Assembly: GCA_945860225.1 (NCBI GenBank)
Contig: CAMAPT010000025.1
Span: forward strand, 1 to 37,243
DNA from: Chitinophaga pinensis
GTDB lineage: Bacteria; Bacteroidota; Bacteroidia; B-17B0; Aurantibacillaceae
Reading direction: 5' to 3'
Length of the DNA: 37,243 bases
The position numbers were made by a program, and so were the translations under genes. The first letter of the stretch is position 1. Every line of letters begins with the position of its first letter. The notes under the pieces were generated by a model. It saw nothing but the letters and a program-made list of their open reading frames with translations. It searched no databases and was not told the DNA's origin. Below, piece after piece: positions 1 to 1,065 of the stretch.

Positions 1-127
<127 letters not shown>

Positions 128-141
128 AAAAGTAATTTGAT

Positions 142-159
142 CTAGATATTCATATCTAG
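142..159 (-). repeat. Perfect 8-bp inverted repeat in the 16S leader
   Basis: CTAGATAT-TC-ATATCTAG lies 15 bases upstream of the predicted mature 16S 5' end. In RNA a 2-base loop is too tight, so the inner pairs would open. It could be a leader hairpin or part of the precursor processing region. The partner strand of a 16S processing stem would lie beyond the left edge, so this cannot be tested here. Confidence 0.4.
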
Positions 160-272
160 GAATGTCTGTTCAGGGTCTAGCATGTATTTTAAAAAACAAG
201 TATCACTACTCATTCCATTCAGATGTACTCTCTTTTCAGAGTTACCTGCTACATTTTTTGGTTTCAATATTT

Positions 273-281
273 TCAAAGAAC
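273..281 (-). promoter_or_regulatory. boxA-like antitermination element in rRNA leader
   Basis: The reverse strand reads GTTCTTTGA about 145 bases upstream of the 16S 5' end. It resembles the boxA element of rRNA leaders (E. coli TGCTCTTTAACA), which loads NusB/S10 for antitermination. Its place between the promoters and 16S is right. The call rests on motif resemblance only. Confidence 0.5.
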
Positions 282-406
282 TTTAACTTATCTACCAATC
301 CTAAAATCAATAAACAAATCAATATTTTTAAATAATCTCAGTCTATCTCTAAACTTTAATCACTCTCAATCTCTTAATGAACTTCCGCTCTTTCGTTTGC
401 GGGTCG

Positions 407-437
407 CAAATGTAAATGCTTTTTTCTTATCCACCAA
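407..437 (-). promoter_or_regulatory. rRNA promoter P1 (proximal)
   Basis: The reverse strand has TTG (435-437), a 20-base spacer, and TACATTTG (407-414). This matches the Bacteroidota primary-sigma consensus TTG-N17..23-TAnnTTTG exactly. Transcription should start near 400-402, leaving a leader of about 275 bases before 16S. A GCGACCC block follows the -7 element and resembles the GCGGCCC found at P2 and P3. Confidence 0.75.
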
Positions 438-515
438 ATTTATTTTAAAATTTCTTAAAAATAAATTTACTAAATATCCAACCACTCCTCCCAACTTCAC
501 TCTCTAAAAACATAT

Positions 516-640
516 CCTCAAACAACGGGCCGCAAATGTAATAACTTTTTTGTCGTAAACAAGAATATTTTAAATAATTTTTAAAATAATTTTATTCTTT
601 ATTATCTTTCAAAAAGTACCTCAAACAACGGGCCGCAAAT
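516..640. repeat. 22-bp direct repeat around rRNA promoters P2 and P3
   Basis: CCTCAAACAACGGGCCGCAAAT occurs at 516-537 and again, identically, at 619-640. Each copy covers the downstream part of a -7 element and the initially transcribed bases. A shorter relative (GGGTCGCAAATGTAA) sits at P1. This suggests duplication of a promoter unit, or selection on the initially transcribed sequence. Confidence 0.85.
533..562 (-). promoter_or_regulatory. rRNA promoter P2
   Basis: The reverse strand has TTG (560-562), a 19-base spacer with an A6 tract, and TACATTTG (533-540), followed by GCGGCCCGTTGTTTG. It shares a 22-base identical block (516-537) with the P3 region (619-640). The perfect -7 element, correct spacing and repetition make it a convincing rRNA promoter. 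Confidence 0.8.
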
Positions 641-665
641 TTAACAAGTTTTTTATTACCCACAA
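636..665 (-). promoter_or_regulatory. rRNA promoter P3 (distal)
   Basis: The reverse strand has TTG (663-665), a 19-base spacer with an A6 tract, and TAAATTTG (636-643), followed by the same GCGGCCCGTTGTTTGAGG block as P2. P2 and P3 are 103 bases apart. The very AT-rich sequence upstream could act as UP-element-like DNA. Confidence 0.78.
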
Positions 666-1065
666 GAAGATACATCATATTTTTTTTAAAAATCTTATCA
701 ATTAAAAGCAATGTGCTGATTTACAATAACTTATTTTTCATTTAATACAATCCTTATTTTATTCCATAAACCTTATTAACAAACTTATCATAGCAATTAC
801 CGCATCTTAACACACAAATCCATGCTACCAGCAATAATTACCAATCTCTTAATAAAACAAAATCAATTATAATTTAATATTCTATTTATGTTGAATAGAA
901 AAATGAATCTTTTTAATTCATTATAATATTTAGAAAACAATTTCATTTTTTTCATAAAATTATTGATAGTTTTGATTATATTAAAGTCAGATTTTTAATG
1001 GCCAAAACTAATTTTTATTAATGTGATTATATATTCACTTTCTTCACTCATACTCTTAGAGGCAT
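666..1065. other. AT-rich intergenic region between rRNA promoters and mutA
   Basis: About 400 bases of very AT-rich DNA separate the divergent rRNA operon and mutA. I see no gene, tRNA or clear terminator. One forward TAGTTTTG (967-974) fits the -7 consensus for mutA, but no TTG stands at the right distance, so I do not call a promoter. A weak AGAGG (1058-1062) precedes the mutA start. Confidence 0.6.

Follow-up and report, generated by a model that had tools for sequence, protein, structure and literature searches.

The window analysed here is a stretch of 37,243 nucleotides from Chitinophaga pinensis (GenBank assembly GCA_945860225.1, contig CAMAPT010000025.1), which constitutes an entire contig (C25) of a 2.9 Mb draft genome in 47 contigs. 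Its first 127 positions carry, on the reverse strand, the 5' end of a 16S rRNA gene (Rfam RF00177, 85.8 bits), and the contig stops within this gene. An Rfam search of positions 1-1100 at E values up to 1 returned the 16S gene and no further match. A 16S search over the whole genome gave no match, though cmscan detects the 127 nt in the window. Positions 128-1065 form the upstream region of this rRNA (rrn) operon, on the opposite side of which lies a divergent pair of methylmalonyl-CoA mutase genes (Pfam). The pre-16S leader contains, at 264-281 of the reverse strand, the boxA-like element GTTCTTTGAAAATATTGA, read off the sequence.

Three promoters are stacked ahead of the 16S gene on the same strand, and each of them matches both boxes of the Bacteroidota sigma-ABfr / sigma-A promoter (-33 TTG and -7 TAnnTTTG). 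As located by a motif scan, the inner promoter, P1 (407-437), comprises TTG at 437-435, a spacer of 20 nt and TACATTTG at 414-407. The middle promoter, P2 (533-562), has TTG at 562-560, a spacer of 19 nt and TACATTTG at 540-533, and the outer promoter, P3 (636-665), has TTG at 665-663, again a 19-nt spacer, and TAAATTTG at 643-636. One A6 tract lies in each spacer (420-425 in P1, 546-551 in P2 and 649-654 in P3, all on the reverse strand). The original prediction of three reverse-strand TTG-N19/20-TAnnTTTG promoters with an A6 tract in their spacers was accurate in all its coordinates. Three such motifs never occurred together in 2000 first-order Markov sequences with the composition of window positions 1-1065 (one strand of 1065 nt each; no motif in 1835, one in 157 and two in 8), and the strict motif was found seven times in the whole window (1 forward, 6 reverse), three of these being P1-P3. 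Sequence and position both agree with tandem rRNA promoters of the primary-sigma type.

Immediately past each -7 box lies a GC-rich stretch of the kind found in the discriminator of E. coli rrn P1. Counted from the box, offsets 1-7 on the reverse strand read CGACCCG in P1 (400-406) and CGGCCCG in P2 (526-532) and P3 (629-635), with predicted starts at the G in positions 400, 526 and 629, respectively. A claimed identity of P2 and P3 over 22 bases was also found on comparison, as ATTTGCGGCCCGTTGTTTGAGG at 516-537 and 619-640 of the reverse strand, within surroundings that are 75% alike over 80 nt (D1 family). P1 shares TTTGCGACCCG with this block and then diverges, and TTTGCG-CCCG is common to all three promoters. 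The block had been said to cover the bases transcribed first, which would apply to its downstream, CCCGTTnTTTGA-like part. GCGGCCC itself would be mostly discriminator and start point, at about -6/-5 to +1/+2, because the usual gap between box and start is 4-5 nt (PMC6847099, in the portion of the article available).

The second rrn copy that can be read in the draft genome, which may contain more, is on contig C16. Its bases 1-147 equal window positions 417-563 exactly, from the P1 spacer through P2 and the -33 TTG of P2, after which the two diverge. The C16 copy (L013 1-150) therefore carries an identical P2 with its GCGGCCC and the -33 box of P1, and the contig stops before the -7 box of P1 and the 16S gene; an Rfam search of L013, a contig that begins inside P1, found no rRNA. 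Over the 460 bases scanned on C16, P2 had no other TTG-spaced box ahead of it. P3 is therefore missing there, and the number of promoters differs between the two copies. Absence of the boxes before other rrn copies had been named as the outcome that would count against the prediction; at C16, P2 with its GC block and the -33 box of P1 were retained and P3 was absent. C16 bases 85-219 align at 72% with window positions 605-738, the P3 region, pointing to duplication as the source of the outer promoters. Recent duplication as the sole cause was rejected, since the discriminator is kept at rrn promoters in 12 families despite the resemblance of P2 to P3.

This conservation was established on rrn upstream regions collected by a conserved 16S start, which was matched in 7 of 20 genomes of a genus set, 23 of 51 of a family set and 86 of 391 of a phylum set. 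Of 96 upstream loci, 40 of which were retrieved individually, seven shorter than 200 nt and two redundant over their final 400 nt were dropped. The remaining 87 regions come from 79 genomes, eight of which gave two copies each. All of these genomes belong to the class of the window, the 'same phylum' genomes having no 16S match to the search pattern. A promoter was defined as TAnnTTTG with TTG 17-22 nt upstream, and a CC discriminator as CC occupying offsets 4-5 or 5-6 past the box. By these definitions, CC followed 168 of 183 boxes with TTG; the corresponding counts were 8 of 44 where TTG was missing and 3 of 43 for the opposite strand. The register to the box is fixed: C stands at offset 1 in 171 of the 183 promoters and at offset 5 in 175, A at offset 2 in 133, C or T at offset 4 in 181, and C or G at offset 6 in 177, giving the class consensus C-A-N-Y-C-[C/G]. 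The spacer is N19 or N20 in 154 of the 183.

At least one promoter with both TTG and CC was present in 83 of the 87 regions (one in 27, two in 32, three in 20, four in 3 and five in a single region), and the discriminator occurs at rrn in 12 families (f1-f6 and f8-f13). The four regions with none are L032, for which 299 nt were available, L139, whose CAGTCCC box lacks a TTG within the set spacing, together with L082 and L143. The last two are both of the rrn upstream regions of G441, a genome of 1.2 Mb, and there the GC discriminator is absent. Mean GC content over offsets 1-7 was 0.79 at rrn promoters and 0.29 in 31 promoter-like sites picked for having no CC (the sample is described below). 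Judged by comparison of sequences, the GC block of the window is a local instance of a class-wide discriminator of ribosome genes, rather than private to one operon. GCGGCCC, for which a comparison with other rrn copies had been suggested, is present unchanged at P2 of C16, and across the class a block of the form C-N-N-Y-C-[C/G], mostly with A as its second base, recurs at rrn promoters. The near-exact block TANNTTTGCRGCCCGTTNTTTGAGG had seven matches in the genome collection, all in metagenome-assembled genomes (MAGs; Bacteroidetes or Bacteroidia bacterium): two are followed by a 16S gene at a distance of about 350 nt (L053, L054), and four lie within about 155 nt of one end of the available stretch, with no rRNA in that stretch. 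The remaining match, a promoter block with CAGCCCGTTCTTTGAGG at L052 2601-2625, stands about 146 nt ahead of a tmRNA gene.

Conservation past the start is lineage-limited. Within the window's family, sequences like CCCGTTnTTTGA occur at 16 of 50 promoters, and in all 16 cases a further box lies closer to the 16S gene; inner promoters of this family often read CCCGCAAAnGAAA. Across the class, A or T predominates at +9/+10, and the information content of columns +11 to +20 is 0.08-0.54 bits, with a purine-rich tendency. A second TTTG, 8-12 nt past the box, is present in 45 of the 168 rrn promoters with CC (6 on average and at most 13 after shuffling), chiefly in f1 (22/49) and f5 (15/54); outside f1 it was found in 23 of 119, compared with a shuffle mean of 1.1. 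It is possibly a sigma-dependent pause element. The spacer A-tract is general to rrn promoters of the class, beyond P1-P3: A occupies the positions 8-11 nt upstream of the box in 77-88% of the 168 promoters vs 35-42% of the 31 non-CC sites, and AAAA lies in the spacer of 120 of the 168 vs 10 of the 31. As both the discriminator and the A-tract differ from ordinary promoter-like sites, P1-P3 do not provide the clear reference set for the primary sigma factor that had been proposed, and rrn promoters are unsuitable as a neutral sigma-A consensus.

The same discriminator is found at other genes of ribosome synthesis. In the window's own genome, TANNTTTGNNNCCC has 26 matches, vs 17 for the reversed pattern; four are at rrn, 14 in reading frames and eight intergenic. 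The intergenic matches precede rpmB, tig, the HU gene, a tRNA on C13, a tRNA cluster ahead of tuf, fbp, a gdh-like gene and a transporter-like gene. Those before fbp and the gdh-like gene have no TTG at the proper spacing, and the match in the tuf region is the promoter of the tRNA cluster, also included among the tRNA counts below. The rpmB gene gave 41 matches in 40 of 41 genomes (own and relatives), and 260 nt upstream were analysed at 30 loci: TAnnTTTG was present at 19, with CC in 18 of the 19 (15 of 16 where TTG was also present), and no TAnnTTTG lay within the 260 nt at the other 11, most of these outside the family. For tRNA genes, 30 loci each were taken from the own genome (31 found) and from the complete genome G263 (60 found), and 23 and 18 of the loci taken are first in their cluster. 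TTG and box stood before 16 and 13 of these, with CC in 11 and 8, respectively; CC is absent from 10 of the 29, several of which read CACTCG, one letter off.

For comparison, twenty 20-kb stretches were drawn from each of these two genomes (2 x 400 kb) and scanned for TTG-N18-21-TAHHTTTG upstream of a frame or tRNA. This gave 41 sites (23 own, 18 G263), some of which are surely not promoters; the ORF caller used was simple. Positions of the own-genome stretches were chosen by hand, and previously seen sites fell within those on C2, C3, C9, C11 and C16, among them the HU site on C9 and rpmB and tRNA-Asp on C11. CC was present at 10 of the 41: before rpsF, rpsO, queA, tRNA-Met and tRNA-Cys in G263, and before rpmB, tRNA-Leu, a secDF-like gene and a DUF3050 gene, and at one site inside a topA-like frame, in the own genome. 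The 31 sites without CC include those of rpsL (box followed by CCTTTC), rplU (CGGACT) and tRNA-Asp, and most of their genes encode neither ribosomal proteins nor tRNA. The names rpsL, rplU, gdh, secDF, topA, ileS, lspA and others were assigned by eye. The tRNA-Asp promoter (L009 1603-1645, on C11) has TTTGGTGGATAAGAAA in common with P1, comprising the -33 box and the start of the spacer (28 nt, 93%), and reads TACTCG in place of the CC discriminator.

Genes for ribosomal proteins or tRNA make up 6 of the 10 CC sites vs 3 of the 31 others (Fisher p 0.003), or 5 of 9 vs 2 of 28 when the C11 stretch containing rpmB is removed (p 0.005). Set against 4 of 32 other sites, CC is enriched at tRNA (19/29, p 2e-5), rpmB (15/16, p 5e-8) and rrn promoters (168/183, p 4e-20), values that are optimistic because related genomes, and the two copies from each of eight genomes, are not independent. 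In the window's class, the discriminator is far more frequent at promoters of rRNA, at most of the tRNA promoters sampled and at several promoters of ribosomal-protein genes than at other promoters. It is present at rpsF and rpsO and at most promoters of rpmB and tRNA genes, and rpsL, rplU and tRNA-Asp are exceptions.

The position of the block bears on where transcription would begin. Many starts in F. johnsoniae lie 4 or 5 nt past the box (PMC6847099) and the box of F. psychrophilum is placed at -12 to -5 (PMC9723704), which, as far as the available text of both articles goes, puts the usual start at offset 5 or 6. In B. thetaiotaomicron, the preferred first bases are A (45%) and G (41%) (PMC7366714, likewise available in part). 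Among the non-CC sampled sites, 25 of 31 have a purine at offset 5 or 6 and 20 at offset 5, vs 63 and 4, respectively, of the 183 rrn promoters. With C at the usual start and a preference for purines, rRNA synthesis would begin on C or else be displaced to the first purine. Counted from offset 5 onwards, this purine falls within offsets 6-8 in 159 of the 168 rrn promoters with CC. From this base content, initiation is predicted probably to shift downstream, the usual start position being C.

On balance, the locus is probably best described as three stacked rrn promoters of the primary-sigma type, each with a GC-rich discriminator that would serve growth-linked (stringent-type) control. The control part of this reading is drawn by analogy, because rrnB P1 of E. 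coli, whose start lies nine bases from the -10 element via scrunching, and the DksA/ppGpp-sensitive promoters of that organism also possess GC-rich discriminators (PMC7822876, in the part available). Membership of the discriminator class rests on comparison, and its regulatory effect would follow from several steps. The GC-rich stretch may give a short-lived open complex, and with C at the usual start position the polymerase would probably begin at the first purine past the C run. Output would then be sensitive to (p)ppGpp, the supply of initiating NTP, or both, and several promoters in tandem would raise the maximal output.

The likeness to E. coli rrn P1, known here from sequence, extends to a GC-rich stretch directly past the -10/-7 box, a first purine farther downstream than usual and a kind of discriminator common to other ribosome genes. 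The sigma boxes and the discriminator letters differ. E. coli rrn P1 is controlled by DksA/ppGpp and initiating NTP. In the genome studied here, the DksA domain has one match, to a 352-aa protein at 25.8 bits, a weak score against a cut-off of 24.9, and with this as the sole match a DksA/ppGpp route would be uncertain. The protein is encoded at L281 1468-2526 between ileS-like and lspA-like frames; its N-terminal part is long and charged, and its zinc-finger region has few cysteines. CarD was considered as a stabiliser and rejected: the only CarD-domain match per genome, in eight genomes, is in a frame of 1,116-1,167 aa, which we take to be the length expected of Mfd.

Four other explanations of the block were weighed against growth-linked control. 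The C run could act chiefly as a sensor of the initiating nucleotide, whereby a start with CTP, or switching between C and a purine, would let rRNA synthesis read the supply of CTP and GTP. C at offset 5 in 175 of 183 rrn promoters falls where a box-to-start gap of 4-5 nt (PMC6847099, accessible part) would place the start, and the first purine follows closely, at the offsets of 6 to 8 noted above. The preference of B. thetaiotaomicron for A and G as first base (PMC7366714, accessible part) argues against a start with CTP, and a role chiefly as nucleotide sensor appears unlikely. The original prediction had taken conservation downstream of the start to mean control by initiating nucleotides or by a bound factor. 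The former is possible at P1-P3; the latter has the lower probability, given that the motif and the box stay in constant register even on genes that are not homologous. A separate DNA-binding protein recognising GCGGCCCGTTGTTTGAGG over the start would account for the reach of the P2/P3 identity to about +10 and for the CCCGTTnTTTGA-like sequences at 16 of 50 family promoters and before the tmRNA gene of a MAG. However, the part conserved across the class is short, non-palindromic and locked to the box on unrelated genes, and neither P1 nor the rpmB and tRNA promoters examined have the downstream part, so that such a protein seems very improbable.

A function of the block as RNA, through leader folding, processing or boxA-type antitermination, would have the block form the first bases of the pre-rRNA if transcription started at offset 1-3. 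The usual start 4-5 nt past the box (PMC6847099, on the text available) and the presence of the same block on tRNA, rpmB, rpsF and rpsO promoters, whose transcripts are unrelated, leave hardly any weight on this explanation. A more ordinary account would make TTTGCNNYCC part of the general sigma-A consensus, or a product of recent promoter duplication. Duplication of the outer promoters is indeed likely, given the 75% similarity around P2 and P3 and the 72% similarity between the P2 flank on C16 and the P3 region, and the published F. psychrophilum sigma-A sub-motifs could contain TTTGCNNYCC. Yet CC is present in just 10 of 41 sampled promoter-like sites, the motif is conserved at rrn in 12 families although spacers vary, and the alignment of 241 F. 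johnsoniae promoters gives TAHHTTTG as the near-invariant element (PMC6847099, in the part available). This ordinary account is therefore given little credence.

The F. psychrophilum sub-motifs, SM1-SM3, are variants around TAnnTTTG that are possibly regulatory, and section 15 of that article, the part available, describes them with neither a GC discriminator nor a link to rRNA or tRNA (PMC9723704). On this partial text, some overlap with the CC discriminator is possible. Compared with general Bacteroidota sigma-A promoters, those of rRNA have two additional features, a spacer A-tract and a GC-rich discriminator whose register to the box is fixed. No description of a discriminator at Bacteroidota rRNA promoters was found in the titles and abstract openings searched, a coverage that leaves out most subscription journals. 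A 2009 study reportedly compared the 16S expression signals of B. thetaiotaomicron and E. coli.

The Bacteroidota are abundant in guts, soils and seas, and their promoters and sigma factor are unlike those of model bacteria. A more far-reaching proposal, which we put forward tentatively and with more doubt than conviction, is that the Bacteroidia have a start-site code of their own for ribosome synthesis, in which CANYC[C/G] after TAnnTTTG blocks the normal start with its C residues and forces rRNA initiation downstream or onto CTP. Ribosome production would then respond, by way of RNA polymerase itself, to (p)ppGpp or to nucleotide pools, through a device evolved independently of proteobacterial rrn P1, to which a second TTTG may add a sigma-dependent pause in two families. 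The best reading of the discriminator of P1-P3, made by analogy, is as the counterpart of the E. coli rrn P1 discriminator, and it looks like a switch that would tie ribosome production to growth. A seven-base signature that marks promoters of rRNA and of many tRNA and ribosomal-protein genes across the class would yield a list of candidate growth-regulated genes for any genome, and it would offer a small mutational target for stringent or nucleotide control.
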